From a virus, in IMG/VR virus record IMGVR_UViG_3300025674_008651, positions 1-48,364 of that record: a stretch of 48,364 nucleotides of DNA. The stretch is one strand, 5' to 3'. Below, in pieces: positions 3,305-36,510 of the stretch. The notes beneath the pieces were generated by a model. The model saw nothing but the letters and a program-made list of their open reading frames with translations, ran no database searches and was not told the origin of the DNA. A program made the position numbers and the translations under genes. The first letter of the stretch is position 1. The number at the start of each line of letters is the position of its first letter.

Positions 3305-3542
3305 ATCAAAAGTAAAAGAGATTATCCGCGAGGAACTACTAAATGAATTCACCACAACGGGAATTGATGTTCCTCGCATTGTCTCTTTACGAAGACCGGC
3401 GAAGAAGAGATCTAAGGCAAAAGATCCAATGAAGAGGCTTGAAGCTGACCTTCATACAACTCAAGACTCCGTTGATAGACTAGAAGAGTTTGTCCGTGAG
3501 ATCTACAATATGCTAGTTAAAATAATAAGGAAGAATAGATAA
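3291..3542 (+). CDS. Small tagged internal-protein candidate
   Basis: This 83-residue, basic protein opens MKITESKVKEIIREELLNEF. It is the third consecutive gene with the MKIT/MKVT helical leader, and LLNE followed by Phe fits [LIV]-x-E cleavage. The rest has a basic stretch (RRPAKKRSKAKD) and a C-terminal amphipathic coiled coil (RLEADLHTTQDSVDRLEEFV). Its TAA overlaps the next ATG (TAATG). No catalytic motif is seen; a DNA-associated packaged protein is the best inference. Confidence 0.72.
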   Translation: MKITESKVKEIIREELLNEFTTTGIDVPRIVSLRRPAKKRSKAKDPMKRLEADLHTTQDSVDRLEEFVREIYNMLVKIIRKNR

Positions 3543-5749
3543 TGTGGGATAAAAAAGGCGAAAATTTAACTTATAAATTTCTTAAACTATTAAATGAGAA
3601 AAACAACAAAGACACTTTTAATGTTATAGAAGAGCAGGTTTCAGCCGCTAGTGGTCTTCAGAGCGCCATGGGCGATGAAGATCCAAGCTTTGGTAGAAGC
3701 ATGGTGGATCCAGAACAGCTAAAAAGAACAAAGCCACAAGGCAAGCCTTTGGCAATTGTAGCTGGTGATAGTCAAACTTACTATTCTGGAGGAGCTTTAG
3801 CAAAAAGTTTAAGATCTAAAGGATTTGATGTTTTACATAAGCCTGGAATTACATATAAAAGTGGCGAAAGTACAGATAAAACAATAAAAAGAATTAATGC
3901 CTTGAAAGTAAATCGCCCAGTAAATTTAGTCGTTGTTTTTACTGGCGGTAATAACACTCATATGCTTGATCAGACTGAAGCTCTTGTATCTCAGCTTATA
4001 GATAATATTAGACAAAAATTTGGAGAAGATGTGGAAATAGTAATTGGAGCGGCTCCACCAGGAAGAACTGGAAATCCTGCTGCTGTCAAAAGAATTTTTC
4101 GCAAAGAAGCCCACACGCCAGAATACAAAGAAAAAAGAAAAATGGCGGCAAATTTAACTGCTCAAGCAGCAGCAGCAAAAGGGGTCGAAGTAGTTAATCC
4201 ACATGAAGCAGGTTTTTTAGCTGATGATGTAACAAGTGGAGACGGCGTACACTTGACTGGTACAGATGCTCAAAATTTTGCTAATGCGTTATTCCAGAAA
4301 ATAACTGGTAAAGGTGTCGGTATGGCTGTTGGTGGTCCTGCTCAAAGAACCCCAGGCGTAACACAAGCGCCACCTGTTGCTCAGGCAGCAAACATGGAAC
4401 AACTAAAGCAAAAAGCAAGAGTAAAAGCTAGGAGATGTTTACGAAGCAACATTTTAGCAATCGGCGCTGGCTTAAGAAATTATGGTCAAATGGAAGATCA
4501 AGTTTTAATCTTACAACAAGCCCTTGTAGATAAAAAAGCAATAAAAAATCCAAAAACTTTTAAAGTTGATGGAAAGTTTGGACCTGAAACATTAGAGGCT
4601 GTTATTAATTTTCAAGTCTTAAATAAATTAGACCCAGACGGCTGCGCAGGACCACAAACGCTAGCTGCGCTTGGTGTTACTTCTGATACTGCTGCTCCAG
4701 AAAAGGCAAAAAAAGCGCCTGCTGGTGGCGTCAAAGTGACTCAAGATACAGTAACCGTTGGAGGAAAAAATTATAAAGCTATTGGATCTGGAGAGGATTC
4801 TTCTACAAAACACATATACGTTGGAAGAACTCCTAGACCTTCAAGCGCAAATAGATTCTTGAACTTTGTCTCAGATCGAGGATCTTACGGAATGAACGAG
4901 CAACAGGGAGAAGATCCAAGTAACTTGTCTATGATAGATTTGATTAATTTTGTTGCTAAAAAGATGAACATTCCACCAGAAGTTTTATTAGCAGTTTCTT
5001 GGACAGAGACTGGTGGGTCTCCTAAAAAAGTATTTAGCATGTCTTTTGATGGAAGTTATGGTTTAACACAGGTTTGTAGACCTGTTCCAGAGAAAAAGTG
5101 GGATAGCTTTTGGAGAGGACATTTAACAATTTATAGAAGACAATTTATGAGAAATCCAGAAAAGTATGGCGGGTTCAAGCCAGAATATAAATATCTCGAT
5201 GATAAATCATATAATCAAAGAAGAAAAGTCCTTTACAAAGTTCCTGGCGGTGGTACTGTAAAAGGAGAAGCAATTGAGAAAGAATACACCAGAAGAAGAC
5301 ACCCGAGATCTAAAATAAAGCCATTTAGAGGCTGTCCTGATACTTTCGGAGGATATTGGAGAAGATTAGAGACTGGAAAAGGTGTCCCTCAATTAGATAA
5401 AGAGTTTATGGACAAGTACATGACAAAACAAAGAGGTGATGAGGTAAAAACCAAACAAGATAAAATTAAGTTTATGATCACTGATTTAATGATTGGCGCG
5501 GCAGAAATGAGAAGACAGTTAAGCAGGTATAAAGGAGACTTAAGAAAAGCATTTCCAGCTTACAACGCAGGCTCTTTTAGACAAAATAAACAATTTAAAG
5601 ACTTGTCTAGTAAAACAGGCGCTCCAATTGCTTTTAATGAGAACTACCAAAATAAAATTTTAACTGCTTACGCTTGGCTAAGAGAAAAAGCAGGCAAACA
5701 AGTTGAATTAGTTGACGTTGAAGGCTTTGATGGAGATTTTAAAGCTTAA
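3542..5749 (+). CDS. SGNH hydrolase - peptidoglycan-binding - lytic transglycosylase virion protein
   Basis: This 735-residue protein appears to have three enzymatic or binding modules. (1) Residues 68-256 have the SGNH/GDSL hydrolase blocks AGDSQT (Ser77), TGGNN (135-138) and DGVH (Asp234, His237). (2) Residues 312-378 match a peptidoglycan-binding domain (LQQAL, DGKFGPETLEAVINFQ, DGCAGPQT). (3) From about 463 to 700 lies a soluble-lytic-transglycosylase fold with SWTET (Glu489 catalytic), SYGLTQV and FPAYNAGS. The N-terminus (FLKLLNE ... FNVIEEQVS) has two [LIV]-x-E sites, as expected of a capsid-processed protein. The likely job is local opening of the host wall, with the SGNH domain perhaps deacetylating or de-esterifying glycan first. 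It starts in a TAATG overlap inside the tagged cassette. Confidence 0.88.
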   Translation: MWDKKGENLTYKFLKLLNEKNNKDTFNVIEEQVSAASGLQSAMGDEDPSFGRSMVDPEQLKRTKPQGKPLAIVAGDSQTYYSGGALAKSLRSKGFDVLHKPGITYKSGESTDKTIKRINALKVNRPVNLVVVFTGGNNTHMLDQTEALVSQLIDNIRQKFGEDVEIVIGAAPPGRTGNPAAVKRIFRKEAHTPEYKEKRKMAANLTAQAAAAKGVEVVNPHEAGFLADDVTSGDGVHLTGTDAQNFANALFQKITGKGVGMAVGGPAQRTPGVTQAPPVAQAANMEQLKQKARVKARRCLRSNILAIGAGLRNYGQMEDQVLILQQALVDKKAIKNPKTFKVDGKFGPETLEAVINFQVLNKLDPDGCAGPQTLAALGVTSDTAAPEKAKKAPAGGVKVTQDTVTVGGKNYKAIGSGEDSSTKHIYVGRTPRPSSANRFLNFVSDRGSYGMNEQQGEDPSNLSMIDLINFVAKKMNIPPEVLLAVSWTETGGSPKKVFSMSFDGSYGLTQVCRPVPEKKWDSFWRGHLTIYRRQFMRNPEKYGGFKPEYKYLDDKSYNQRRKVLYKVPGGGTVKGEAIEKEYTRRRHPRSKIKPFRGCPDTFGGYWRRLETGKGVPQLDKEFMDKYMTKQRGDEVKTKQDKIKFMITDLMIGAAEMRRQLSRYKGDLRKAFPAYNAGSFRQNKQFKDLSSKTGAPIAFNENYQNKILTAYAWLREKAGKQVELVDVEGFDGDFKA

Positions 5750-6879
5750 TGATTGAAATCACTATCGGCAAAACTTTAAACCCCGAGCTTTGGGACGGCA
5801 TGAAGCTAGATCCCGAGGTTCGTCGTAAGCTAATAGAGATTGCTATTCACTTCGCTGAGTATCTCGACATTCCAGAAGAATTCGTTAAAGATGTGACCTT
5901 CACAGGCAGCATGGCTAACTTCCACTACGGTCCTAAATCAGACATTGATCTTCACGTTGTTTTAGACTACAAAGATATCGATGATAATGTTGACCTCGTA
6001 AAGAAGATGTTACGAGCCAAGAAAGCCCTCTACAATGACCGTCACGACATTAAAATCAAAGATAGAGAGGTAGAGTTGTATCCACAAGATGCGAGCGAAC
6101 CACACTATTCTACGGCGGTTTACAGCGTTAAAAATGGCGAGTGGATTACTAAACCAACACCAGTTTATGTCGATATCGATGATAATATGATTCGCAGGAA
6201 GGCTGAAAATCTAATAGACAAAGCTAAGCTCATAATTAACACCGAAGACCTTTATGATAAAGTTGAAAGACTTGAAAAATTTAAAGACAAAATTATGGAT
6301 ATGAGAAAAGCTGGCTTGGAGAAGGGCGGTGAGTTCTCAACTGAGAACTTAGTTTTCAAAGAATTGAGAAACAATGGTTTTTTAGAAGCTCTCCTAAATG
6401 AAATCAATGATTCAATTGATAAATCATTGTCTTTGGATGAAATGGAAAAATATCAAAGGCAATCAATTAAAATTAATAAAATTAATGTTCCAATTCTGTT
6501 AGGATTAAAAAGCGGAGGTAAGGCTTTTAGACCTCGTAAAAAGAGTAAAAAGATGAAGCCCTACATTCATCAACCTAAACCAAATTATCTTTCAGCGCCT
6601 CCTGGTGCTCCAGGTGGATTGGAGGAAGCTTCAACATCTGCGAATGTTGAAATTTATGGAACAAGGTTCCCAGGACCAAGACCGTACAAGAAAATAGCTT
6701 ACATGGGCTATGCTGGATCTGTAGATCCAAACACAGGTGATAGAGGCAGATTCTTAGTAGAAAAAGAAACTATTTATGAAAAGTGGTCTGCTTCAGAAAG
6801 AAGAAAAAGGGCTAAAAAGTGCGCCAATCCAAAAGGCTTCACAATGAAACAGTTTTGTAAGAATAGAAGGAAAAAGTAA
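5749..6879 (+). CDS. Nucleotidyltransferase-superfamily protein
   Basis: A pol-beta-type nucleotidyltransferase core lies at residues 45-130: FTGSMANFHYGPKSDIDLHV gives the GS motif (Gly53-Ser54) and the metal-binding Asp65-x-Asp67. The third carboxylate is probably in EVELYPQD. The middle (about 150-250) is helical. The tail is basic and ends in a CANPKGFTMKQFC two-Cys motif plus RRKK; I recall similar tails on other marine-phage proteins. An internal GGLEE-AST could be an [LIV]-x-E cleavage site separating enzyme and tail. It could add nucleotides to RNA, proteins or small molecules; the substrate is not evident. TAATG coupling to the transglycosylase gene and its place among tagged genes suggest packaging in the virion. 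Confidence 0.82.
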   Translation: MIEITIGKTLNPELWDGMKLDPEVRRKLIEIAIHFAEYLDIPEEFVKDVTFTGSMANFHYGPKSDIDLHVVLDYKDIDDNVDLVKKMLRAKKALYNDRHDIKIKDREVELYPQDASEPHYSTAVYSVKNGEWITKPTPVYVDIDDNMIRRKAENLIDKAKLIINTEDLYDKVERLEKFKDKIMDMRKAGLEKGGEFSTENLVFKELRNNGFLEALLNEINDSIDKSLSLDEMEKYQRQSIKINKINVPILLGLKSGGKAFRPRKKSKKMKPYIHQPKPNYLSAPPGAPGGLEEASTSANVEIYGTRFPGPRPYKKIAYMGYAGSVDPNTGDRGRFLVEKETIYEKWSASERRKRAKKCANPKGFTMKQFCKNRRKK

Positions 6880-7530: not shown

Positions 7531-8043
7531 ATGATTAAAGTGACTGATAATTCCAAAGACGGAATCTACAGTTCCAATATGGAGCTTATCGACAATTTTA
7601 CAGATTACTCATCAAAAAATTTAGACTTCAATAAACCAGTAGAAGTTGAGTTTTTAGATGATGAGGACAATGCTAAAAATCCTTTAGGTACAACAGCCCA
7701 CTACAATCCCGATAATCTTAAAATTACAATTTATGTTACAGGCAGGCATCTTAAAGATATTTTAAGGTCTATGTCTCATGAACTTATTCACCATGTTCAA
7801 AACTGTCGTGGTGATTTAGGTGGTAGAGATACCGAACTAGGATACGCCCAAGATGATAAGCATATGCGTGGAATGGAACACGAAGCTTACACTATGGGAA
7901 ACATAATGAATTTCAGAGACTTTGAAGACAACTATAAAAAGAAAGTATTTAAAGAATCTTTAGCTTTTGATAATCTAAATAATTATAGAAAAAATATTTT
8001 AAATAATAAATTCAAAAAGCTTGTTGAGAATATAGAGAGATAA
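7531..8043 (+). CDS. HExxH zinc metalloprotease-like protein
   Basis: The 170-residue protein carries SHELIHHVQ at residues 82-90, a zinc-protease HExxH motif (His83, Glu84, His87). A downstream acidic/aromatic segment MEHEAY (115-120) could supply the third ligand. The N-terminal 60 residues contain short strands (VEVEFLDD, TAHYNPDN, ITIYVT), typical of a compact metzincin- or gluzincin-like fold. The C-terminus is a basic helical tail (NILNNKFKKLVENIER) and the N-terminus lacks the helical tag of its neighbours, so any targeting signal may be C-terminal. It probably cleaves a host or virion protein; the substrate is unknown. Confidence 0.82.
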   Translation: MIKVTDNSKDGIYSSNMELIDNFTDYSSKNLDFNKPVEVEFLDDEDNAKNPLGTTAHYNPDNLKITIYVTGRHLKDILRSMSHELIHHVQNCRGDLGGRDTELGYAQDDKHMRGMEHEAYTMGNIMNFRDFEDNYKKKVFKESLAFDNLNNYRKNILNNKFKKLVENIER

Positions 8044-8046
8044 AAA

Positions 8047-10551
8047 ATGAACAAACTTCAAGAACAAAGGCTAAAGCGATTAAATTCTTTATTAATGGAA
8101 CAGGACAACATTCCCGATTCTATAAAAAGGGGTATTCAACGTGGTGAGGCTCCAGGCTACAGCGCTGGAGACGTAGCTCTTGGAGCCGCTGCTGGGGCTG
8201 GTGGTTTGGGCGTTTCAGTTGCCAGTGTTAAAGGTTTTCTTGGTCTATTTAAACAGAATCCAAAAGCAATAATAGAGGCGATGAAAGCCGCAGGTGTTGG
8301 AGCAGAAGAAATTGCTAAAGTTGAGGCATTAGCAGCTAAAAATCTTGAAAGTCCTAGCCGAACTAGAAGAGCATTAAGAGCAATAGCAAAACCTTTTAAG
8401 ACCGTAATGGAAAAAAGCAGTAGCGCTGTAAGAAACAATATTGGAAAAGGAATAAAAAGCTTTTGGAAAAATGCTGCTGCTCAACAAAGATATTTTGGAA
8501 AAACATCAAAATTTATATTTGATAAAGCAAGCGGTAAGCTAATCGAAAAAATGACAACCAAGGAAATCGAAGTTGCTGCTAGAGAAGCTGGCAAAAAGGC
8601 GTTTCAGAAAACGCTTGAGAGATCCATAGCTAGAAGAACAGCAACTGCTGTTAAAAAAGGCGCTGAATTAGCTGCGAAAAAAGGCAAAGACGAATTAGCA
8701 AAACAATTAGTTAAAAATAGTGGTAAAGTCATAGAAGCAGAAAAAAAATTGGCTCAAGCTTCTCAAAAGGCTCTTGATGCTGCTAAAAAATTAGACAGCT
8801 TAAAAGCCGCTCAGCAGGGTCCATTCAAGGCTCGACCCGGTACACTTAAGATTGATAAAGCAGAAAGGGCTTTAAAGGCGGCAAAGCAAGCAGAACAAAA
8901 AGCTGCTAAAAGCCTCAAAGGAATTAGTAAAAGAGCCGTAGCAAGAGCAGAAAAAGAAGCCATTAAACAGCTTAAAGACCAAGCAGTTAAAAAAGGTATT
9001 TCTAAAGCAGAGCAAGAGGCGATTGAACTAGCAGCTAGAAAGACAGCCACTGAAGCTGGTGAACGAATGACTGCGAGAGTTAGCGCTCAGCTAGCTGCCC
9101 AGGGAGGCAAAGTAGCAAACATTGGAGCTAGAACAGCAGCGAAAGCTGCTGCTGAAAAAGCTGCGATGTCGGCGGGCGCTCAATTAGCTGGGCAAGCTGG
9201 AGCCGGGGCTGCTCTTGGAGCCGCATTTTCTGTTTTATCAGCCGCAGAAGCAGGATATTATATTGGAAAAGGTATTAACGCATTTCTTCTTTCTCAAACA
9301 GAAACTGAAGAACAAAAAGATAGAATTAAAAGAGGGGAGAGAAGTCCCAAATATGCTAAAGATGAATTAGATGTTTATTTTGGATTTTATGGAACTTTGT
9401 GTATTAGAAATGTGAAATGCCTCGGACAAGGCAAGCCAGGAGGCTATAGTTATGAGACAGCTTCCTCTGAGGAATCTTGGACTTCTTCGTTTTTTGGTCT
9501 AGACTACGGTGGTAGAAATAAAACAGGATTGGGATTTGGAAAATTCATTCAAGTTCCCGGCTTCAACAGCAAAGATATTCTAGTAATCGTTGGTATGATG
9601 GCTGCTCTCATTAATGATGATATTAAAAATAAAAAAATTGTCTTAAATAAGAAAGGCGATAAGTATGAAGTTAAAGACGGCGCTATGGTAAAGCCTTACA
9701 TTAATGCGTTCGTTTCGCTAGCTAAGAAATATCCACAGGCATTTGGAAAAGTCACAAGCGATCCAGATGGACTTGCTTCATTAAGCGCAATTATAACTTA
9801 CCTTGGATTACAACCAATTAAAATTGGTGAAGAAGAAGTTACCGCTAGTGATCTTACATCCCGTGCTGAAGTTGAAAGATTTGTTGATGGATATTATGAC
9901 GCACTGGAAGGCGTTGGAACTAAAAAGCAAGTTGTTTTTGGCTTGGGCGGTCAGCTAATGGACAAGCCAGAATTGGCTAGAAAAGTTGAACTTAGATTCG
10001 ATGCTAAGTATGGTCAAACCTGGGATACTCTCCGAAATGGAATTGACGGCGACCTTGATGGTGATGATTACAAAAGAGCGATTGCTCCATTTTTAAATTC
10101 TGATAAGGTATTAGGTCCAATTGGTAAGGAGAAACCATCGCCAACTCCAGCAGGACCAACTGGACCTTCTAGATGTGATAATTACCCAATTACAAAAGGT
10201 TGTGTTGGAAAGCCAGTTGGGAATATAATCTATATCGCAACTTATGGAACTAAAACTGGTACTGATCTTGCTGCTAAAAATAAAGCCGCGATAGATAACT
10301 TAGAAAGCGCCAGTATTTTAAGTGATGAAGCGATTAAATTAATATCTCAAATTCTTCAAGTTGAGGCGCCAGACGTATTAAAAGTCTGGCAAGATAATAA
10401 TTTTACTATTAAAAGTGGTGATAAAGTTGATAGATGGCTTGACGTAACAGCTTCAAGAAAAGGTATGACAGAGAGTTTAGATTTTTATCGTAAAATTAAA
10501 AAAGATAAGCATAATAAATTAGCCGATCTTTTAATGGAAAGAATTAAATGA
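8047..10551 (+). CDS. Large Ala-rich helical virion protein with glycine-zipper segments
   Basis: This 834-residue protein opens MNKLQEQRLKRLNSLLMEQDN, with LLME an [LIV]-x-E site; the lead resembles that of the gene at 12780 (MEKLQEQKLRAF). Residues 38-72 (ALGAAAGAGGLGVSVASVKG) and about 378-420 (AGQAGAGAALGAAFSVLSAA) are glycine-zipper-like hydrophobic stretches able to insert in membrane. Between them lies about 300 residues of Ala/Lys-rich coiled coil. The C-terminal half is globular, with a DGDLDGDD acidic loop that could bind calcium and a Pro-rich linker PSPTPAGPTGPS. It resembles ejected or inner-capsid proteins in architecture, but I recognise no family. The ATGA overlap couples it to the ligase-NMNAT gene. 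Confidence 0.75.
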   Translation: MNKLQEQRLKRLNSLLMEQDNIPDSIKRGIQRGEAPGYSAGDVALGAAAGAGGLGVSVASVKGFLGLFKQNPKAIIEAMKAAGVGAEEIAKVEALAAKNLESPSRTRRALRAIAKPFKTVMEKSSSAVRNNIGKGIKSFWKNAAAQQRYFGKTSKFIFDKASGKLIEKMTTKEIEVAAREAGKKAFQKTLERSIARRTATAVKKGAELAAKKGKDELAKQLVKNSGKVIEAEKKLAQASQKALDAAKKLDSLKAAQQGPFKARPGTLKIDKAERALKAAKQAEQKAAKSLKGISKRAVARAEKEAIKQLKDQAVKKGISKAEQEAIELAARKTATEAGERMTARVSAQLAAQGGKVANIGARTAAKAAAEKAAMSAGAQLAGQAGAGAALGAAFSVLSAAEAGYYIGKGINAFLLSQTETEEQKDRIKRGERSPKYAKDELDVYFGFYGTLCIRNVKCLGQGKPGGYSYETASSEESWTSSFFGLDYGGRNKTGLGFGKFIQVPGFNSKDILVIVGMMAALINDDIKNKKIVLNKKGDKYEVKDGAMVKPYINAFVSLAKKYPQAFGKVTSDPDGLASLSAIITYLGLQPIKIGEEEVTASDLTSRAEVERFVDGYYDALEGVGTKKQVVFGLGGQLMDKPELARKVELRFDAKYGQTWDTLRNGIDGDLDGDDYKRAIAPFLNSDKVLGPIGKEKPSPTPAGPTGPSRCDNYPITKGCVGKPVGNIIYIATYGTKTGTDLAAKNKAAIDNLESASILSDEAIKLISQILQVEAPDVLKVWQDNNFTIKSGDKVDRWLDVTASRKGMTESLDFYRKIKKDKHNKLADLLMERIK

Positions 10552-12761
10552 TTGATAGTAAAGTATTAAAATTATTAATAGAAGAGATCATCAATGAAGA
10601 ACTCCTTACCGAAGGTGGGGCTGGTGGTCATATGCGCCACCCATTTGATTTAGATGATGTCAAAACTGGTGAAGATTTAATCAAAAAGTTTGAACAAATT
10701 GGTTCTGAAATTGAGGGTGGTAATCGCCCAGACACAAAGATCGACGGTGTAAATACAAGTATTAAGATTGTTGATACTCCAGAAGGCAAGCAATTTGCTA
10801 TGGATCGTGGTTCATCAAAACCTATTGATGTTGAAGGCATCACAGTAGATCGCTTACCTGAAAGATTCAGCGCTGGTCACGGAATGATTCCAGCCGGTGA
10901 GAATGTCTTAGGCATTTTTAATGACGCCCTAAAAGACGCTGAGCCTGAACTAAAAGAATTAGGCGTACTTGATGATCCAACTAAGTTCTTCAACATGGAA
11001 TACGTCAAGGGAACAACTAACGTCCTAGCTTACGATCACGACTTCTTAAAAATTCATGGTGTTAGCCAATTCTATGAAAAGAAAAATAGAAAGGGTCAAC
11101 CAGCAAGACCAGGATTAGAAAGACCAATAGATCCAGAGACTAATAAGGCAATTAAAGATCCTTCAGTTCCAGTAGCTTACGATCAAGAAGTTATGGATAG
11201 ATTGGTAGAAAAACTAAATAAAGTTGCTGATAAGTATGGCTTTAAGGTTTACTCATCTATTCCATCTACATCAACTGGCGATTTTGATTTCAGTTCAGTT
11301 ATGAATGTTCCGGTTCCAGTGACTTACTCAACTGGCGACATCAGAGAAGAGACACTAGGCGATAGACTCAAAGCTGCTAAAAACAGAATTGGCGAAACTG
11401 TTAAAACTGTTGATGGTCGTAAACCGCCAGCACAAGGCAAAGAGATTTACAAAGCTGTTCTTGGCGCTTCCGCTGCGGACACAAACGCAGATCCAGAGAG
11501 ACAGATTCCTTTAGACGAGCTACTAGCTTCTGACGAAGACTACCAAAGAGCTATTGATGGTGCTGTATTTTGGCACGGTACAAGGCTCTTAGGCAATGTT
11601 ATTATGAATAACATGGTAGTAGACCACCCTGCCGTCTCAGGACCCGCTACAGAGCACGAGGGGCTTGTTATCAGGCTATCTGGTGATGACTTCGACACCA
11701 AGATTACTGGCGAGTTCATTTTGGGTGGTGAGGCTACATCATTTAGAGCCGCTGAGCCAGAAGCAGCCAAGGAAGTAAAAGCTAAAAATATTGCTATCTT
11801 CCCAGGATCATTTAAGCCACCACATAAGGGACACTTAAGCATCATTGAAAGAATAGCTAAGAATCCTGAAGTTGATGAGATTAAAGTAATCATTTCAGCA
11901 CCCGGCAAAAAGGTTCGTAGTCCAAAGATTACACCTGAGAAGGCAAAGGCTATTTTTGAAAAGTTTATTTCAGCAGCCAACATCACCAAGCCAGTTAGTG
12001 TTGAAATTGCATCTCAACCAAGCCCAATCGGTGCTGCTTACGAATACATTGGCGAGAAGGCTGGTCCAAACGAGAACATCATGCTTCTAACTTCTGAAGC
12101 TGATGCAAAACGATATCCACAAGCTGTTCTTGATAAGGCTGTAGCATCAAATAAAAATGCTGACACAGTTACAGCCAGAGGCTTTGTCCTTCCAGTTTGT
12201 AGAGATGAGGGTTGCGACACAACTGAAAAAGTTAGTGCTACAACAATTAGAAACATTGTAGATGCTTACCCAGAGATCACTTTACAAGATCTCACAAAAG
12301 CCATTGATCACATGCCTGAAACAATGCCAACAGCAGATAAACTAGCTGCTTTTGAGATGCTTGTAGACGATAGCGTTTCCAATAAATTTGAAGATGAAGA
12401 GTTAAATAATTTAAATGAATCTGTTAGATTTATAATGGAAACTATTGATAAAGCATTAGATATAGTATTACTTACTGAGAAAGTTAGAAAGACTAAAGGT
12501 AAAGAAGAGTACTGTGTTGTTTCTAAGAATAAGAAAACTAAAGAAGGTAAGCTTAGAACTTATGGCTGCTACAAAAGTAGAAAAGCAGCTAACAAAAGAT
12601 TAGGTCAGGTAGAGGGATTTAAAGCAAGAGCCATGGCTGAAGGTGAGGAGTTAGAAGAATACGAGATCGTAGAAGTGTCTTCAAATGCTGGTGGTAATGC
12701 TAGCTATGGTTCTGCTCCACTTGGAATGACTAGAAGATCTATAATAAGAGAAGAAGATTAA
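10548..12761 (+). CDS. Fusion of KxDG ligase-like domain with HxGH nucleotidyltransferase (NMNAT-like) domain
   Basis: This 737-residue protein has a tag at residues 1-22 (VLKLLIEEIINEELLTE, with LLTE-GG a cleavage candidate). Residues 55-400 show covalent-nucleotidyltransferase landmarks: KIDG (Lys64 motif I), MEYV (motif III region, Glu151), EGLVIR (motif IV, 371-376) and DTKITGEF (motif V-like, Lys385). Residues 413-600 have FPGSFKPPHKGH (His426, His429) and VSATTIR (562-568), the two signatures of NMN adenylyltransferase and related HxGH enzymes. A second LLTE (641-644) leads to a small Cys-containing domain (EEYCVV ... YGCYKSRKAA) near the C-terminus. Either RNA/DNA sealing plus NAD synthesis, or nucleotide transfer to an unknown target, fits. 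It is coupled by ATGA to the upstream gene. Confidence 0.85.
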   Translation: MIDSKVLKLLIEEIINEELLTEGGAGGHMRHPFDLDDVKTGEDLIKKFEQIGSEIEGGNRPDTKIDGVNTSIKIVDTPEGKQFAMDRGSSKPIDVEGITVDRLPERFSAGHGMIPAGENVLGIFNDALKDAEPELKELGVLDDPTKFFNMEYVKGTTNVLAYDHDFLKIHGVSQFYEKKNRKGQPARPGLERPIDPETNKAIKDPSVPVAYDQEVMDRLVEKLNKVADKYGFKVYSSIPSTSTGDFDFSSVMNVPVPVTYSTGDIREETLGDRLKAAKNRIGETVKTVDGRKPPAQGKEIYKAVLGASAADTNADPERQIPLDELLASDEDYQRAIDGAVFWHGTRLLGNVIMNNMVVDHPAVSGPATEHEGLVIRLSGDDFDTKITGEFILGGEATSFRAAEPEAAKEVKAKNIAIFPGSFKPPHKGHLSIIERIAKNPEVDEIKVIISAPGKKVRSPKITPEKAKAIFEKFISAANITKPVSVEIASQPSPIGAAYEYIGEKAGPNENIMLLTSEADAKRYPQAVLDKAVASNKNADTVTARGFVLPVCRDEGCDTTEKVSATTIRNIVDAYPEITLQDLTKAIDHMPETMPTADKLAAFEMLVDDSVSNKFEDEELNNLNESVRFIMETIDKALDIVLLTEKVRKTKGKEEYCVVSKNKKTKEGKLRTYGCYKSRKAANKRLGQVEGFKARAMAEGEELEEYEIVEVSSNAGGNASYGSAPLGMTRRSIIREED

Positions 12762-12779: not shown

Positions 12780-13766
12780 ATGGAAAAACTACAAGAACAA
12801 AAACTAAGAGCTTTTATTAGAGCAGGTATTATTAAAAAGAAGAAAGAGAGATTAGAAGAGCAATTTAAGCAAGCCTTAAATAAAAACAAGCTTAGATCTA
12901 TTATTAAGAATATACTACTAACAGAAGCTACAGATGTTAACACTGATACTCCTAATAGATCTACAGGTATCAATGTACTAGCTACTACTCTCAAATTAGT
13001 AATCCCTATTATTAAACAAGGCTATGAACAATTAACTTCTAGCCCAGAGCAGAGAAAGTCTTTTAGAGCACATGTTATTCAGAATGCTATTAATACTTTA
13101 GTTAGAGTTGATCTTACGACTGGTTCAGATGAAGAAAGAAGAGCAGGCGATCAAGAAAGAGAAGAAGTTCAAATGCCTCAGAACCCAGAGCTTCCACCAG
13201 AAGAAGCAGCCGAGGAGCCACTTGAGGAGCCAGTCGAAGAGCCCCTAGCTGAAGATGTTGTTGTCGAGCAGGAAGCCGACGAGGAAGATGACATTGAAGT
13301 TGAAGTTGGTGGAGATGAAGATAAGTTTATCGACATCGAAGACAAAGTACCAGAAGCAGAGCCAGAGGCTCCAAAAGGAGCTACAAATGTAGCCAAAGCT
13401 GTTACTGGTGAAAAAGAGTTTGTTCAGATTGGATCCCTTGACGACACCGGCATGGAAATGGCTCAAAGAACATTCCCCAAAGTCCAAAAGCAGATTGCTG
13501 ATGGTTATGCCATGCTTTCACTCAAGTCTGATAAAGAAGATTATGCTGATTTCCTAGTCGCTAACCTTAAGATGTATTTTGACCAGTTCGATCAGGAAGA
13601 GAATGCTGCTCTAGCCGAACCAACTTCACCAGAGTACGAGAAAGCAAAAGCCAACACAGCCCGTTTTGCTGCTGGTGAAGAGGGAGCCACTCTTGAAGAG
13701 GGAATTAATGTTCTTAAAGTTTTGAGAAAAGTTGCGCCCCATCATGAGTATTTTAAAAAGTCTTAG
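12780..13766 (+). CDS. Tagged acidic virion/core protein
   Basis: This 328-residue protein begins MEKLQEQKLRAFIRAGIIKKKKER and has LRSIIKNILLTEATDVN at residues 38-54, where LLTE followed by Ala is an ideal prohead-protease site. The basic first 45 residues would be removed. Residues about 118-205 are extremely acidic (repeats of EEP, EEPL, DEEDD), low in complexity and probably disordered. The last 110 residues form a helical domain (MAQRTFPKVQKQIADGYAML). A basic, cleavable lead joined to an acidic body is reminiscent of scaffold, core or DNA-mimic proteins. No family is recognised. Confidence 0.75.
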   Translation: MEKLQEQKLRAFIRAGIIKKKKERLEEQFKQALNKNKLRSIIKNILLTEATDVNTDTPNRSTGINVLATTLKLVIPIIKQGYEQLTSSPEQRKSFRAHVIQNAINTLVRVDLTTGSDEERRAGDQEREEVQMPQNPELPPEEAAEEPLEEPVEEPLAEDVVVEQEADEEDDIEVEVGGDEDKFIDIEDKVPEAEPEAPKGATNVAKAVTGEKEFVQIGSLDDTGMEMAQRTFPKVQKQIADGYAMLSLKSDKEDYADFLVANLKMYFDQFDQEENAALAEPTSPEYEKAKANTARFAAGEEGATLEEGINVLKVLRKVAPHHEYFKKS

Positions 13767-15553: not shown

Positions 15554-15787
15554 ATGGAGGCGAATGCATTATTTGGGCGACCTTGGAAGACAGCAGGTCG
15601 CTTTAACACTTTTGAGGAAGCGGATAACAAAAGAAAACAACTTTCCTCAGATAAAAATTTACAAGTAAAAGTTAAGAAACAAATTAAAGGTTTTGTAGTT
15701 AAGACCCGTTCAACAGTAGTTGATACACAGGTAGAAGAAAAGAAATCCCGTAAAAAGCAACGGAAGGAGAAGACAAATGATCGCTGA
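15554..15787 (+). CDS. Small basic hypothetical protein
   Basis: This 77-residue, Lys/Arg-rich protein starts after an excellent ribosome site (AGGAGG at 15544-15549). The N-terminal half has RPWKTAGRFNTFEEADNKRKQL, resembling small phage domains that pair two strands and a helix, then VKVKKQIKGFVVKTRS. The tail is highly charged (EEKKSRKKQRKEK). It overlaps the purA-like start by about 10 bases. Possibly a nucleic-acid- or protein-binding helper; function unknown. Confidence 0.7.
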   Translation: MEANALFGRPWKTAGRFNTFEEADNKRKQLSSDKNLQVKVKKQIKGFVVKTRSTVVDTQVEEKKSRKKQRKEKTNDR

Positions 15788-16787
15788 TGTTGTTGTTGGT
15801 CTTCAATATGGTGATGAAGGCAAAGGTAAAGTTACTCACCATCTTTGTAAAACGGGAGGTTATACACATGTCTTACGGTTCAATGGCGGTTGCAATGCTG
15901 GGCACACTATTTTTCATGAAGGTAGGAAGTTTGTTACTCACCACATTCCAGCGGGTGTTTTCTTTGGGATTAAAAGTATCATTGGCAATGGTTGCGTTCT
16001 TGATCCTGTACAATTTTTCCGAGAGTTGGATGAATTGGAATCAGGTGGAATCAACACTAAGGGACTTATTTATATCGCTAAAAACTGCCATGTAATCACA
16101 GATCAACATAAAGAAGAGGACGGTAAAGATACCGCTATTGGAACTACAAAGCGAGGAAATGGTCCTGCTTATAGAGACAAGTATTCCAGAGATGGTTATT
16201 TAGCTCAGGACATTCCAAGTCTCAAACCATTTTTAATTGATCTACATGATGAGTTTTGGAACCATGGTGAGACTAAAATCCTCTGTGAAGGGGCTCAAGG
16301 CTTCGGATTGGACATTGACTGGGGAGACTACCCTTTCGTAACTTCAAGCCATTGTCTGACATCCTCAGTCCTTTTAAATGCTATTCCTCACTATGCCATC
16401 CGTGATGTGTGGGGAGTTGCTAAAGCTTACGAGACTTATGTGGGTTCTAAGAAGTTCCAACCACCACATAACAAGGTGTTTGAACATATTCAAGAAGCAG
16501 GGCAAGAGTTCGGAGCAACAACAGGCAGAGTTCGACAGTGTAACTGGATCGACTTGCCATTTTTGAAGAGAGCAGTTCAGTTGAATGCCGTAAATAAAAT
16601 TGTCTTCAATAAAATGGATGTAGTTCGACAAGTACAGAACTGGAGTTTGAAGAACAACGACGGAAAGTCTGATTTCTTTGAGTATTACTCTACAGAAGAA
16701 GAATTCAAACATAGAATCGAAGAGTTCTTAGCAGATGCGGTAAAAGATCTTGAGATCCACTTCTCAGACAATCCACACAGAATATAG
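15777..16787 (+). CDS. purA: Adenylosuccinate synthetase (PurA type)
   Basis: PurA makes adenylosuccinate from IMP, aspartate and GTP, the first committed step to AMP. The phosphate loop GLQYGDEGKGK (residues 8-18) keeps Asp13, the PurA catalytic base; I recall that in PurZ enzymes of 2-aminoadenine phages this position is changed. Other landmarks are NAGHTI, IGNGCVLDP, IGTTKRGNGPAYRDK, EGAQGFGLDID, YPFVTSS, VGVAKAYET-like VWGVAKAYET, and GATTGRVRQCNWID. At 336 residues it is about 90 shorter than the E. coli enzyme and near the compact archaeal/phage size. GGAAGGAG lies 7 bases before the ATG. It probably boosts adenine supply for an AT-rich phage genome. A PurZ0-like specificity is not excluded. 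Confidence 0.9.
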   Translation: MIADVVVGLQYGDEGKGKVTHHLCKTGGYTHVLRFNGGCNAGHTIFHEGRKFVTHHIPAGVFFGIKSIIGNGCVLDPVQFFRELDELESGGINTKGLIYIAKNCHVITDQHKEEDGKDTAIGTTKRGNGPAYRDKYSRDGYLAQDIPSLKPFLIDLHDEFWNHGETKILCEGAQGFGLDIDWGDYPFVTSSHCLTSSVLLNAIPHYAIRDVWGVAKAYETYVGSKKFQPPHNKVFEHIQEAGQEFGATTGRVRQCNWIDLPFLKRAVQLNAVNKIVFNKMDVVRQVQNWSLKNNDGKSDFFEYYSTEEEFKHRIEEFLADAVKDLEIHFSDNPHRI

Positions 16788-17026: not shown

Positions 17027-17692
17027 ATGACAAGATATTATTGGTGCGACGATAAAACCAAAGAGAAAATCGAAGAAGAGTCTCAAGATGACGGTGGAGT
17101 GACACCAATCATTCTAATGGGTGGTAATGATGGACCACCACCAGCTATGGACTGCATAGATGTCTCTGATAACACAATTATGTTTTATGGCGAAGTTAGC
17201 GAAAAGAATGCTAAGCTATTAAACAAAGCTATTAGAGCCATAGACAAGGACCTACAAGTTTTTAAGGTCAAATACGATTCAGAGCCACCACCAATTAAGC
17301 TACACATTAACTCTTACGGTGGATCTGTTTTCGCTGGTTTCTCAACTGTAGATGTAATTTTGAACTGTAAGACTCCAGTTCACACCTACATTGACGGCTC
17401 AGCAGCTTCGGCAGCAACACTTATTTCTGTTGTCGGAGATAAAAGATTTATGTACGAGCATTCACACATGCTTATCCATCAGCTTTCCTCCGCTATGTGG
17501 GGCAAGTTTGAGGATTTCAAAGATGAGATGGAAAATCTAGATTTGTTAATGACAAAGATTAAGAAGATCTATAAAGAAAAAACAAACATGTCTATGCGAC
17601 AAATCACAGAGATACTTAAAAGAGACAAGTGGTTCGAAGCAGAAAAGTGTGTAGAGCTTGGACTTGTCGATGAGATTGTAGAAAATGGCTAA
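17027..17692 (+). CDS. ClpP-like serine protease (peptidase S14 fold)
   Basis: The 221-residue protein has the ClpP signatures in order: LHINSYGGSVFAGFSTVD (residues 92-109, oxyanion glycines), DGSAASAATLIS (catalytic Ser128) and MLIHQLSS (catalytic His151), with the acidic partner expected later in the chain. The end LGLVDEIV matches the ClpP tail. An N-terminal extension of about 45 residues with a Gly/Pro-rich stretch is not typical of cellular ClpP. It could be a regulatory protease working with a host ATPase. It is also a candidate for the head-maturation protease, since ClpP-fold enzymes do that job in some phages and no other prohead protease is in the window. The first choice is safer. 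Confidence 0.88.
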   Translation: MTRYYWCDDKTKEKIEEESQDDGGVTPIILMGGNDGPPPAMDCIDVSDNTIMFYGEVSEKNAKLLNKAIRAIDKDLQVFKVKYDSEPPPIKLHINSYGGSVFAGFSTVDVILNCKTPVHTYIDGSAASAATLISVVGDKRFMYEHSHMLIHQLSSAMWGKFEDFKDEMENLDLLMTKIKKIYKEKTNMSMRQITEILKRDKWFEAEKCVELGLVDEIVENG

Positions 17693-19001
17693 AAAAACTT
17701 ATGTTTTAGATACAAATGTTTATCTTTCTGACCCAACAGCTTTTAAAAACTTTGGAAGAAACGATGTTGTTATTCCATTAAAGGTTCTTGAAGAGATTGA
17801 TAAGCATAAGAAGAGGCAGGACGGTGTGGGGGCTAATGCTCGCCACACCATTCGTCTTTTGGATGAATATCGTGGAAAGGGCTCTCTTGAAAAGGGAGTC
17901 CGTATTGAGAAGGGTAAGGGACTCCTAAGAGCAAGAATCTCTGATATTAATGCTCTCCCAGCCGAGTCAAATAAAAAAGACCCAGACAACATTATTCTTG
18001 CCTGTGCTTTGAACGAAGTAAATGATGGTAGAAGGGTAGTTGTCGTTTCCCGCGATATTAACCTCAGAGTCCGCTGTGATGCCCTTGGAATCCCTTGTGA
18101 GGGCTACGACATAAACCAAGTCGTTAGTGATCGTAGCGAGCTTTACACGGGCTTTGAGAGGCATTTAGTAGATGATCAAACAATTGATCATTTTTATGCT
18201 GGCGAAAAAATCTTTATTGATAAGGAAGATAAATTACTTTTGCCTAATCAGTTTGTTATGCTGATATCTAATTCTAATGAGAAGAAAACAGCCTTGGCTA
18301 GATTCTTAGCTTATAACAAACCGCTCATCAAAGCAGGAACCCACAAACATGGAGTCTGGGAAATCACCGCAAGAAATAAAGAACAATCTTTTGCCATCGA
18401 TTTATTGTTGGATCCAAATGTTCCTATTGTATCCCTCATTGGTGCCGCTGGTTGCGGTAAAACTCTACTGGCTGTGGCTGCTGGATTGGAACAAGTTCTA
18501 GACGAGGGATCATATGAGCCAATCTACAACAAACTTGTAGTGTCCAGACCAATCATGCCTATGGGTAGAGATATTGGATTCCTTCCAGGTACAATGGAAG
18601 AGAAGATGGCTCCATGGCTAGCTCCAGTTCAAGACAACTTGAAGTTCTTGATGGGAAATGATAAAGTAGCCCTTGAAATGTATGCTGAAAGAGGTATCAT
18701 CGAGATCGAAGCTCTAACCTACATTCGTGGTCGTTCTATCGCAAATGCCTTTATTATCATTGATGAGGCGCAGAACCTGTCAGTTCACGAATTAAAAACA
18801 ATCATTACTCGTGTTGGTGAGAACACAAAGATTGTTCTTACAGGTGACATCGAGCAGATTGACACTGTTTACTTGGATGCTACTAGCAATGGCTTATCTT
18901 ATGCTGTAGAAAAATTTAAACATTATGATCTAGCAGGTCACATTTCACTACAGAAGGGTGAAAGATCAAAGGTAGCTACACTAGCAGCTAAGGTATTGTG
19001 A
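17685..19001 (+). CDS. PIN-PhoH protein (PhoH2-like RNase/helicase ATPase)
   Basis: The N-terminal PIN nuclease domain (residues 5-140) shows VLDTNVYL (Asp9), LEEIDKHK and later acidic residues in DPDNIILA and SRDINLR. A linker leads to a PhoH ATPase with Walker A GAAGCGKT (residues 253-260), the PhoH-typical RPIMPMGRDIGFLPG, Walker B IIIDEAQN and TGDIEQID. At 438 residues it has the normal PIN-PhoH length. PIN-PhoH proteins combine RNase and RNA-unwinding activity; marine phages commonly carry phoH genes. It overlaps the ClpP-like gene by 8 bases. Confidence 0.93.
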   Translation: MAKKTYVLDTNVYLSDPTAFKNFGRNDVVIPLKVLEEIDKHKKRQDGVGANARHTIRLLDEYRGKGSLEKGVRIEKGKGLLRARISDINALPAESNKKDPDNIILACALNEVNDGRRVVVVSRDINLRVRCDALGIPCEGYDINQVVSDRSELYTGFERHLVDDQTIDHFYAGEKIFIDKEDKLLLPNQFVMLISNSNEKKTALARFLAYNKPLIKAGTHKHGVWEITARNKEQSFAIDLLLDPNVPIVSLIGAAGCGKTLLAVAAGLEQVLDEGSYEPIYNKLVVSRPIMPMGRDIGFLPGTMEEKMAPWLAPVQDNLKFLMGNDKVALEMYAERGIIEIEALTYIRGRSIANAFIIIDEAQNLSVHELKTIITRVGENTKIVLTGDIEQIDTVYLDATSNGLSYAVEKFKHYDLAGHISLQKGERSKVATLAAKVL

Positions 19002-19663
19002 TGGGTTTGAGAGAGTTTATTACTGAAAGCCACGACAAGAATGCTCACAAAGGTGTTCTTGGAGTTGAGTTTATCATTGAGGACAAAGGTAAATTTAATT
19101 CAATGGATTTAAAATTTTTCATTAATAAACTTAAAGAAACACTTTCTCCAAAAGCTCTCAACCATGTAAATAAAATAAAACTTGGAAACTATCCAAAGCT
19201 GGATAAAGAAAATTATAAGTCTTACTACAAGGACGGTACAATTTATTTATCTAACAATGTTGATTTTGTCGAAGACATTCTAATGAACTTCTTTCACGAA
19301 TTAGCCCACTCATTTGAGAAGCCCTACTATGGGCAAATCTATGAGGACGGATTCCTAGCAAAAGAATTTAAAAATAAAAGAAATCAACTTAAGAATGTGA
19401 TATCAATGTACGAAGGTGGAAGACCGCCTCCTTTTGACTTTAATCAAATAAACTACTCAAAAGAGTTGGATGATTATTTAGCAAACACAATAGGCTACGA
19501 TAAACTTTGGAAGTATTGCTCAGGCATATTTACAAACCCTTATGCCGCAACATCTTTAAGAGAATACTTTGCAGCAGGTTTTGAGAACTGGCTGAAGGGC
19601 GAGCAACAAATGCTTTACAGGATGAGCCCAGTGTTGTATAATAAACTCAGACAATTTTTTTGA
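19001..19663 (+). CDS. HExxH metalloprotease with capsid-targeting-like N-terminus (lethal-factor-type fold candidate)
   Basis: The start is placed at ATG 19001 (TGATG with the previous stop; AAGG 7 bases upstream). The N-terminus MGLREFITESHDK parallels the T4 internal-protein tag, with EFITE a likely [LIV]-x-E site. NFFHELAHSFE carries the zinc ligands and catalytic Glu (about residues 99-103), and EYFAAGFENWL downstream can supply the third ligand. This HExxH ... E-[YF]-F-A order is what I recall for anthrax-lethal-factor-like catalytic domains in phage and toxin proteins. It would be packaged and act in the host after ejection. It lies outside the main tagged block, next to PhoH, so packaging is inferred from the tag alone. 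Confidence 0.82.
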   Translation: MGLREFITESHDKNAHKGVLGVEFIIEDKGKFNSMDLKFFINKLKETLSPKALNHVNKIKLGNYPKLDKENYKSYYKDGTIYLSNNVDFVEDILMNFFHELAHSFEKPYYGQIYEDGFLAKEFKNKRNQLKNVISMYEGGRPPPFDFNQINYSKELDDYLANTIGYDKLWKYCSGIFTNPYAATSLREYFAAGFENWLKGEQQMLYRMSPVLYNKLRQFF

Positions 19664-19670
19664 GGATGTT

Positions 19671-20453
19671 ATGCCACATATTTCTTATTCAGAACTTAAA
19701 AACTGGACCATGTGTCCACACTACAGGAAATTAGTAAATGAAGATAAACTTAATCCGCTTACTGATTCTATTTTTACGACCTTTGGAACGGCTGTTCACT
19801 CTGTGTGCGAGGAAATTGCACCAATGGATCACCAAGTTAGCGATCCAGCTACACTCTTTGAAAGCCGATTCAAAGAAGAACTCACAAAATTAGAAGATGT
19901 AGAGCAAAAAACAATAGATCAATTTATGAATCAAGGCAAGGAGATCGTAGTAGAAGTCACCGATGCCTTAAAAGACTATTTTGGTGAGTATGAAGTTCAC
20001 CAAGTTGAGGAGCAACTCTTTGAGCGAATCATTGAGTTCCCTAATAAAGAGTATGACTTTAAGGGCTATGTTGACCTTATCGTTAAGACTCCAGACGGCA
20101 AGTACCACATTCTAGACTGGAAGACTTGCTCTTGGGGCTGGGATGCCCGTAGAAAAGCAGAAAAGATTACCACTTATCAGCTTACTTTTTACAAAAAGTT
20201 CTTTGCTGAAAAATACAGTGTTGACCCATCAATGATTGAGACTCACTTTGGACTACTCAAGCGAACAGCAAAGAAAGGAAAAAAGGTTGAGATCTTTAGG
20301 GTCACAAGTGGTGATAAAAAAACTAAAAATGCTGTTAAACTTTTGACAGATGCCTTGTATAATATTTCTAACGAAAGACACTTAAAAAATCGGCTAAGTT
20401 GTCATAAAATGTATGGAACTTGCCCATTTTTTAAAACGGAACATTGTACATGA
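19671..20453 (+). CDS. PD-(D/E)XK nuclease, Cas4/RecB-like
   Basis: The 260-residue protein starts with SYSELKNWTMCPHYRKL, the usual lead of RecB/Cas4 nucleases, then FGTAVHSVCEE. The catalytic set is GYVDLIV (Asp135) and HILDWKTC (Asp149-x-Lys151), followed by YQLTFYKK (motif IV). One Cys in the lead (about residue 15) and three near the C-terminus (SCHKMYGTCPFFKTEHC) are placed like the four ligands of an iron-sulphur cluster in Cas4/AddB nucleases. It probably processes DNA ends in phage replication or recombination. No Cas genes are nearby. Its end overlaps the first glycosyltransferase by 4 bases. Confidence 0.9.
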   Translation: MPHISYSELKNWTMCPHYRKLVNEDKLNPLTDSIFTTFGTAVHSVCEEIAPMDHQVSDPATLFESRFKEELTKLEDVEQKTIDQFMNQGKEIVVEVTDALKDYFGEYEVHQVEEQLFERIIEFPNKEYDFKGYVDLIVKTPDGKYHILDWKTCSWGWDARRKAEKITTYQLTFYKKFFAEKYSVDPSMIETHFGLLKRTAKKGKKVEIFRVTSGDKKTKNAVKLLTDALYNISNERHLKNRLSCHKMYGTCPFFKTEHCT

Positions 20454-21712
20454 GTGATAAAAAGATAAAGATATTTACATTAAGCGATCATCCACTTACA
20501 CCATCTGGTGTTGGAACACAGACAAAATATATCATTGAGGGAATGCTCAGAACTGGTAAGTACCAGTTTATTTCTTTTGGTGGTTTGATCAGGCATGAAG
20601 ATTATCGTCCAATCAAAACAGAAGAGTTTGGTGATGATTGGATTATTATCCCTACAGATGGTTATGGAACACAAGAATCTGTTAGAGCTATGCTATGGTC
20701 AGAAAAGCCAGATATTGTTTGGTTCATGACAGATCCTCGTTTTTGGGGCTGGCTATGGCAGATTGAAGAAGAGATTCGCCATAATGTCCCAATGGTCTAC
20801 TACCATGTATGGGATAACTATCCTTATCCAACTTATAATAAACCAAATTACGATAGTAATGACTTTATCGCTACAATATCAAAGGTTACAGATGATATTG
20901 TAGCAAATGTCTCACCAGATGTAGACAGGCAGTATGTTCCACATGCTGTTAATTTAGATATTTTTAAACCTTTAGAGGATGATTTCCTAGAACAGCTTAG
21001 AGCAGATAACTTTAAAGAAAACAAAGACAAGTTTATTGTCTTTTGGAATAACAGAAATGCTCGCAGAAAGATGGGAGCTACTTTAATTCTTTGGTTTAAG
21101 GACTTCTTAGATAGAGTTGGTCATGATAAGGCTGTTCTATTAATGCATACTAATCCTAGGGACCAAGCAGGATCCAATCTAGAGGCTTTAATTGAAGACA
21201 TTGGATTGAACGACGGACAAGTACTTTTCTCAAGAGAAAAGCTGCATCCTGAGAACTTAGCAGCCATGTATAACATGGTTGATGTTACTATAAACATTTC
21301 AGATGCTGAGGGTTTTGGACTTGGAACTCTAGAGTCCTTATCCTGTGGAACTCCAATCATAGTCAACATGACAGGTGGCTTACAAGAGCAAGTTACAGAT
21401 GGCGAAGAGTGGTTTGGGGTCGGTTTAGAACCAACCAGTAAGACCATTGTAGGCTCACAAGAGGTTCCTTTCATCTATGAGGACAGACTCGCAAAGGAAC
21501 AGGTTGTAGAGGCTCTCCTAGAGATGTTTAACAAGACTCCCGAGGAAAGAAAACAGCTTGGTCTGAAGGGTCGTCAACATGTAGAAACTAACTACAACTT
21601 TGAAAACTTTATTAAGACATGGGACGAGATTTTTACAAAGGTTCATGAAGAACATGGATCTTGGGAAACTCGTAACAGAAAACAAAATTGGACATTAAAA
21701 GAAGTAGCATGA
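20450..21712 (+). CDS. Glycosyltransferase, GT-B fold (GT4-like)
   Basis: The start at ATG 20450 (MSDKKIKIFTLSDHPL) overlaps the nuclease stop by 4 bases; an upstream TTG is in frame. TPSGVGTQTKYIIEGML is the N-terminal Gly-rich donor loop region. The C-terminal half has FWNNRNARRKMGATLIL and the nucleotide-sugar signature EGFGLGTLESLSCGTPIIV. At 421 residues it has a full GT-B length. It is the first gene of the glycan island; sugar donor and acceptor are unknown. Its base composition resembles the left flank more than the AT-richer genes after 23 kb. Confidence 0.9.
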   Translation: MSDKKIKIFTLSDHPLTPSGVGTQTKYIIEGMLRTGKYQFISFGGLIRHEDYRPIKTEEFGDDWIIIPTDGYGTQESVRAMLWSEKPDIVWFMTDPRFWGWLWQIEEEIRHNVPMVYYHVWDNYPYPTYNKPNYDSNDFIATISKVTDDIVANVSPDVDRQYVPHAVNLDIFKPLEDDFLEQLRADNFKENKDKFIVFWNNRNARRKMGATLILWFKDFLDRVGHDKAVLLMHTNPRDQAGSNLEALIEDIGLNDGQVLFSREKLHPENLAAMYNMVDVTINISDAEGFGLGTLESLSCGTPIIVNMTGGLQEQVTDGEEWFGVGLEPTSKTIVGSQEVPFIYEDRLAKEQVVEALLEMFNKTPEERKQLGLKGRQHVETNYNFENFIKTWDEIFTKVHEEHGSWETRNRKQNWTLKEVA

Positions 21713-29734: not shown

Positions 29735-29736
29735 CT

Positions 29737-32381: not shown

Positions 32382-32391
32382 GAAATTTGTT

Positions 32392-34352: not shown

Positions 34353-34355
34353 TAG

Positions 34356-35273: not shown

Positions 35274-35274
35274 A

Positions 35275-36509: not shown

Positions 36510-36510
36510 A

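Follow-up and report, generated by a model that had tools for sequence, protein, structure and literature searches.

We describe a gene of a marine, T4-like virus whose product joins a KxDG ligase-like domain to a T/HxGH nucleotidylyltransferase domain behind a predicted capsid-targeting leader. In our judgement the chances are about even that this product is an RNA-end ligase or adenylylating enzyme which has an HxGH partner, is packaged in the head, and is matured by a protease. The pairing of the two enzyme types in many viruses and in varied gene layouts probably reflects an undescribed enzyme kit that is carried into the cell. The whole stretch of DNA analysed, here called the window, is a virus record of 48,364 bases; as the record is linear, it is probably a fragment.

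The fusion gene and its ligase-like half

The gene is an open reading frame of 737 codons' worth of protein (737 aa) on the plus strand, with its ATG at 10548 and its stop at 12761. The frame and all the motifs quoted in the preliminary description were recovered exactly as placed from the translation of the window: KIDG with Lys64, EGLVIR (371–376), and DTKITGEF (383–390) in the first half, PPHKGH (424–429) and VSATTIR (562–568) in the second, an N-terminal leader ending LLTE/GG (the slash marks a predicted cut after residue 22), and a C-terminal domain that contains Cys. Identical copies of the gene are found at loci L001 and L002, and a third copy at L003 is 88–93% identical, all on IMG/VR contigs. 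The model of the whole protein is of moderate confidence (pLDDT 74.5). The features, together with two neighbouring genes discussed below, are as follows.

10548–12761, plus strand: fusion gene, 737 aa, with leader, KxDG ligase-like half, HxGH half, and C-terminal domain
10548–10613, plus strand: leader, residues 1–22 (MIDSKVLKLLIEEIINEELLTE), predicted to target the capsid and to be cut after LTE
10614–10649, plus strand: conserved start GGAGGHMRHPFD of the predicted mature ligase-like half, from family alignments and partly selected by the search patterns
10614–11747, plus strand: KxDG ligase-like domain, residues 23–400, from the AlphaFold2 model and the PDB fold search
10737–10754, plus strand: motif I, K64-I-D-G-V-N69 (K, D, G, and N invariant)
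10986–11033, plus strand: motif III-like FFNMEYVKGTTNVLAY (E151, N158, and Y162, invariant; hhalign to the T4 Rnl1 motif III region)
11658–11675, plus strand: motif IV, EGLVIR, residues 371–376 (E, G, and V invariant)
11700–11717, plus strand: motif V-like KITGEF, residues 385–390, with a single Lys (K in 97%, T in 94%, G in 97%, and F in 97% of clusters)
11781–12377, plus strand: T/HxGH nucleotidylyltransferase domain, about residues 412–610 (PF01467; PPAT and NadD structures)
11823–11834, plus strand: HKGH motif, residues 426–429, intact in the window protein
12234–12251, plus strand: SATTIR, residues 563–568, C-terminal motif of the HxGH superfamily (SxTxxR or SxSxxR in nearly all relatives)
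12471–12665, plus strand: C-terminal domain LTEKVRKTKGKEEYCVVSK..GCYKSRKAANKRLGQVEGFK, residues 642–706, nearly unchanged in locus L004, whose N-terminal half differs
5749–6879, plus strand: pol-beta-like nucleotidyltransferase in the same gene run, a possible further partner (NTP_transf_2 E 7.8e-4, under the cut-off; phrog_36119, 168 bits)
12780–13766, plus strand: next gene, with an LLTE/A site; a similar sequence ends the chain of the L039 member (by eye)

The KxDG half has no sequence match in Pfam, PHROG, NCBIfam, or PDB. A relative in Microcystis phage Mel-JY01 was found by plain tblastn and shows the same features independently of any motif pattern, and the large viral family was reached by a search with an alignment that included it. 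Relatives were found at 31 loci in one scan and as at least 120 stretches in a motif scan. A tblastn search with the 346-aa clade gave no match in cultured phages. Conservation was counted over 35 clusters of viral relatives (70% identity), in which K64, D66, G67, N69, E151, N158, Y162, E371, G372, and V374 are invariant and K385, T387, G388, and F390 are kept in at least 94%; most of the same motif residues are conserved in an alignment of 58 sequences. Since most relatives were fetched by patterns containing GGHMxHP, one of which also held KxDG, the invariance of those two stretches is partly selected. No search pattern contained the other motif residues or the LxE that precedes GG, and as judged from these alignments the motif conservation is beyond chance. 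The conserved residues fit motifs I, III, IV, and V of covalent nucleotidyltransferases, with KxDG as motif I, the acidic E151 in motif III, and EGxV as motif IV; motif V reads K-x-T-G-x-F and is missing the second Lys of the KxK found in Rnl1 and Rnl2. A scan of 84,980 bacterial and archaeal genomes returned two matches only, both in MAGs. A cellular origin for these is not supported: both assemblies also contain a T4-type Gp23 capsid gene, and on the L200 contig an S77 protease lies close to the family match.

The AlphaFold2 model of the KxDG domain is confident (pLDDT 91.7, pTM 0.88). The preliminary description had proposed comparing a predicted structure with RNA ligases, and these proved to be its best matches among solved structures: the top 12 in the PDB fold search are all RNA ligases, including archaeal RNA ligases, T4 Rnl2, T4 Rnl1, and an RNA editing ligase, with DNA ligases next. 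At E values of 0.02–0.08 and low TM-scores, these matches are no more than suggestive of a ligase fold. The fold search of viral models (BFVD) returned first more viral proteins of the KxDG kind, several of them named cytidyltransferase-like, and further down many viral RNA ligases, including an Atu_ph07 protein named RNA ligase. Pfam RNA_ligase matches the distant member L201 with E 1.6e-4, under the curated cut-off, and weakly matches 3 of the 58 aligned members. The curated RNA ligase models PF09414 and PF09511 left the window protein unmatched, the best member scoring 22.3 bits against a cut-off of 27. When the family was aligned by hhalign with Rnl1 (T4 and relatives), FFNMEYVKGTTNVLAY paired with the Rnl1 motif III region only (p 0.0018, a single comparison). 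Searched against PDB by sequence, the KxDG half alone found nothing and its profile search found no ligase; in a search of T4 ORFs with the family profile, the ORF holding rnlA ranked third of 166, which is not significant. Thus, the ligase core that had been claimed for this half holds up in its motif set, its confident model, the RNA-ligase-led fold matches, and the Pfam match of L201, but falls short of the curated RNA ligase cut-offs.

The family resembles T4 Rnl1 and the RNA_ligase/Rnl2 group in its KxDG, its NxE(F/Y) motif III with the N..Y run, its EGxV motif IV, its motif V Lys, and its RNA-ligase-led folds. It differs from them in scoring under the curated cut-offs, in having one Lys in motif V, in the HxGH partner that is fused or adjacent, and in the virion leader. 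We take the KxDG half as a new family within the superfamily, outside Rnl1 and Rnl2, for which sealing of RNA or DNA is possible. It is rather unlikely, in our estimate, that the KxDG half adenylylates a target other than RNA, such as phage DNA ends or a host protein, while the HxGH half supplies or processes the nucleotide. KxDG chemistry does extend beyond RNA, motif V is unlike that of Rnl1 and Rnl2, and no RNA-binding domain was recognised in Pfam searches of the window protein and 58 relatives. However, RNA ligases come ahead of DNA ligases among the nearest folds, and the pol-beta neighbours described below resemble RNA repair clusters.

The HxGH half and its recurrent pairing

The HxGH fold proposed for the second half of the protein is borne out by Pfam CTP_transf_like (PF01467), which matches residues 417–464 with 23.7 bits against a gathering score of 21, and by the best PDB matches of the full-length model, PPAT and NadD (probability 0.99–1.00), with NMNAT and HldC also among the fold matches. 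The NCBIfam model cyt_tran_rel is slightly over its cut-off as well. Given the Pfam score, the fold, and the HKGH and SATTIR motifs, membership in the T/HxGH superfamily is secure. Relatives have H, T, G, or S at the position of the first HxGH His and keep the last His. HxGH-first relatives such as L063 and L048 carry GxHH in place of HxGH, the first His being lost and the ligase motifs intact. A stand-alone HxGH protein of Lak megaphages (L013, 3992–4615, from a Prevotella Lak phage) is similar to the HxGH half of the window protein.

For the NAD regeneration that the preliminary description had assigned to this half, we found nothing past the fold. The NMNAT, NadD, NadM, NadR, and PPAT equivalog models all score far under their own cut-offs (12–26 bits for the NadD/NMNAT models against 112–397), and NadV was found in 1 of the 26 records searched, most of them fragments, and not in the window. 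We therefore regard as unlikely the reading in which the HxGH half acts as an NMN adenylyltransferase and rebuilds NAD lost to host NADase defences, with a ligase half that either uses NAD or is a separate repair enzyme. This reading draws on NadD and NMNAT being among the best structural neighbours, on weak matches of NadD and NadM models to the first part of the HxGH half, and on the proposal of NMNAT in virions by the authors of cyanophage papers. The T/HxGH fold and the SxTxxR motif are likewise shared with the NMNAT, NadM–Nudix, and NadR–kinase enzymes of phage NAD salvage. In contrast to those enzymes, however, the fusion partner here is ligase-like and not a Nudix or kinase domain, and many relatives have G or S in place of the first HxGH His. 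The scarcity of NadV also runs against this reading, since phage NAD salvage is built on NadV (PMC9503650).

From 20444 to 38529 the window holds a long gene run with at least seven glycosyltransferase or O-antigen-type matches. The HxGH half might in principle make a nucleotide-activated sugar or alcohol for this large cluster, a role of the kind suggested for cyanophage HIGH enzymes (PMC7824862), and HldC is one of the fold matches. We hold this to be very unlikely, as it accounts for neither the ligase-like fusion partner nor the virion leader nor the recurring pair.

Over the 35 clusters, the HxGH domain follows the ligase-like domain in 8, precedes it in 12, lies in a nearby ORF in 5, is unseen in 8, and is cut by the contig end in 2, so that it is fused or nearby in 25 of the 33 scorable clusters. 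Some records without a nearby HxGH ORF carry one elsewhere, and an HxGH gene also lies near the far member L201. On a tree of the ligase-like domain, which is a quick tree with some long branches, the starred branches alone give at least four changes for HxGH-first and two for HxGH-last, and both domain orders thus appear to have arisen repeatedly.

The mosaic locus L004 (6000–8942) resembles the window gene in its neighbours and leader and shares its C-terminal domain, which was not found beyond the nearest relatives and L004. Here, the KxDG half is swapped for a pol-beta-like nucleotidyltransferase and DUF6267; we read the N-terminal part as pol-beta-like from its GDLDIAID. The DUF6267 part (PF19782, E 1.5e-35) itself bears KWDG..EGYV..KLV. 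PF19782 has no match in the window protein and is absent from the families matched by the 58 relatives, and hhalign of the family with DUF6267 gave no match. As sequence profiles give no link, the kinship is argued only from fold matches and shared context. In cyanomyoviruses, a DUF6267 gene is followed by a cytidyltransferase gene (T4-GC 71 and 190; phrog_455 and phrog_395), a KxDG-type protein next to or fused with an HxGH protein as in our family, and DUF6267 is present in 469 phage records. The fold search reaches A0A0K0KVS3 of P-TIM68 (262 aa), which from its length and coordinates we infer to be gp052, the DUF6267 protein of that phage, and an S-PM2 protein of 591 aa, which by equal lengths and coordinates would be a DUF6267 plus cytidyltransferase reading of the locus. 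The KxDG halves of the two groups nevertheless differ in having no detectable sequence similarity.

The Atu_ph07 gene that agrees with the entry named RNA ligase overlaps one that is related to the L004 N-terminus and encodes a nucleotidyltransferase-like product without a match in Pfam. The combination of pol-beta enzymes and RNA ligases is a known theme of phage repair (PMC7824862), and the family resembles such RlaP modules in having a KxDG protein with a nucleotidyltransferase fused (L004) or adjacent (Atu_ph07). Such pol-beta-like partners of analogous KxDG proteins fit an RNA-end repair kit. What sets the family apart from the RlaP modules, besides the lack of a Pfam match in Atu_ph07, is its HxGH enzyme. 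In the relevant parts of two reviews, on phage NAD and RNA repair systems (PMC9503650 and PMC7824862), HIGH enzymes come with a Nudix or kinase partner and RNA ligases with a pol-beta one, and no pairing of a ligase with a HIGH enzyme appears.

Other genes of the window include an adenylosuccinate synthetase-like gene at 15777–16787 (Pfam 6e-84; PHROG 2-aminooxy adenylosuccinate synthetase), a ClpP-like serine protease at 17027–17692 (Pfam 2e-34; PHROG head maturation protease), and a protein at 3542–5749 with matches to a GDSL-type lipase (just under the cut-off), a peptidoglycan-binding domain, and an SLT transglycosylase. By eye, we also noted a Nudix-like box GGGAEKGETPEEAAIR at 1881–2306 and a HELIHH metallopeptidase-like motif in a small protein at 7531–8043, in the same gene run as the fusion gene.

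The leader, its predicted cleavage site, and probable packaging in the head

The suspicion that the leader is cleavable is strongly borne out across the family. The residues (L/I/V/M/F)-x-E stand directly before the conserved start in 30 of the 31 clusters with upstream sequence (29 before GG and one before A), compared with a background rate of 2.2% per position, and all four remaining clusters start at Met-GG. In all 12 clusters with an HxGH-first fusion, this site falls between the two enzymes, a position suggesting that they are separated on maturation. Short leaders, e.g. MLSFLQFLAE, MISFKNYTLLQE, and MITFKNFIIVQE, resemble the leader of T4 IPII and IPIII, MKTYQEFIAE/A (T4 record), so that leader and site together resemble a T4-type capsid-targeting leader and its cleavage site. 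A capsid-targeting sequence is common to the T4 internal proteins, one of which, IPI, undergoes proteolysis and injection (PMC3012670). The short N-terminal leader and the xE before a small residue are shared with IPI, IPII, and IPIII; unlike these proteins and Alt, the family has two catalytic-type domains and, in its HxGH-first members, an inter-domain site. A T4-type prohead protease of the S77 type was found in 19 of the 30 records searched and Gp23-type capsid genes in 18 of the 30; the 48 kb window fragment has neither. Within the window, the genes at 2320–2688 and 18998–19663 have T4-style leaders (MDKILELWNEFIQE/A and MMGLREFITE/S), so these are probably further packaged proteins.

Virion presence has been reported for related cyanophage HxGH proteins only; for the window protein, packaging and cutting are predicted from its leader. 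The virion proteome of S-SZBM1 includes the HxGH protein SSZBM1_140, which begins MRFRQFIIEA, and the neighbouring protein _139. The DUF6267 protein _141 is absent from the list and is without a leader, in which respect it differs from our family. An NMNAT-like protein was reported in the virion proteome of S-SCSM1 and a cytidylyltransferase in that of S-CREM2; the authors of the cyanophage virion proteomes do not exclude contamination. A structural or assembly role on an enzyme fold, without catalysis, could also account for a virion protein, as in the role of T4 Rnl1 in tail-fibre attachment that is noted in the T4 rnlA record. The gene run does contain other leader-bearing proteins and the HxGH motif is degenerate in some relatives, but every cluster retains the catalytic-type residues of the KxDG half, for which a scaffold would have no use, and the HKGH of the window protein itself is intact. 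We therefore consider such a role quite unlikely.

Proposed function and its meaning

Several points weigh against the reading of a head-packaged ligase, namely the E values and low TM-scores of the PDB fold matches, the PDB profile search without a ligase, the single Lys of motif V, the S-SZBM1 KxDG-type DUF6267 protein being off the virion list on which its HxGH neighbour stands, and the S77 protease gene missing from the window fragment. In its favour, the pairing and the head-targeting leader together fit an enzyme kit, delivered with the DNA, that would adenylylate or seal nucleic-acid ends as infection begins. From the anatomy of the leader and the family-wide pattern, the leader would send the fusion protein into the prohead, where the prohead protease would cut after LTE and leave GGAGGHMxHPFD as the mature N-terminus. 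The mature protein would then enter the cell with the DNA, as the T4 internal proteins do. Going by its motifs and fold, the RNA-ligase-like KxDG half would accept AMP from ATP on Lys64 and pass it to a nucleic-acid 5′-phosphate end, most likely of host-cut RNA, adenylylating or sealing it. LigA-like use of NAD by way of the N-terminal GGHMxHP element is a further, speculative possibility for this half. The HxGH half may carry out a second nucleotidyl transfer onto a phosphate in the same pathway, and so prepare or recycle the substrate or product of the ligase half. The two domains with their motifs, the repeated pairing, and the pattern at the leader are seen in the sequences, whereas packaging, cutting, injection, RNA as the substrate, and the coupling of the two reactions are inferred.

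Ligases place AMP on a 5′-phosphate, and T/HxGH enzymes place a nucleotide on the phosphate of a small molecule, both giving products of the A-P-P-R type. As a tentative extension, doubtful at present, the ligase-type adenylyltransferase and the T/HxGH enzyme could form a head-delivered end-modifying machine that acts sequentially on one 5′-phosphate end, e.g. building or editing a dinucleotide RNA cap such as an NAD-like or App cap, or recycling the nucleotide released. It would be made as one chain, with the HxGH-first versions split by the prohead protease at LxE/GG in the maturing head.

Public databases already hold such proteins, named cytidyltransferase-like, and single members are thus deposited; DUF6267 had no mention in the literature searched, and the family, the ligase-like half, and the leader rule appear to be undescribed. 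What emerges is a widespread viral enzyme family without a curated model, tied to a recurrent partner, together with a sequence rule by which LxE/GG or Met-GG foretells packaging in the head and the precise mature N-terminus. The side-by-side DUF6267 and cytidyltransferase genes of many cyanomyoviruses and the HxGH proteins reported in cyanophage virions also gain a meaning that can be tested. If the enzymes are active, RNA-end chemistry would join the short list of enzymes injected with phage DNA.
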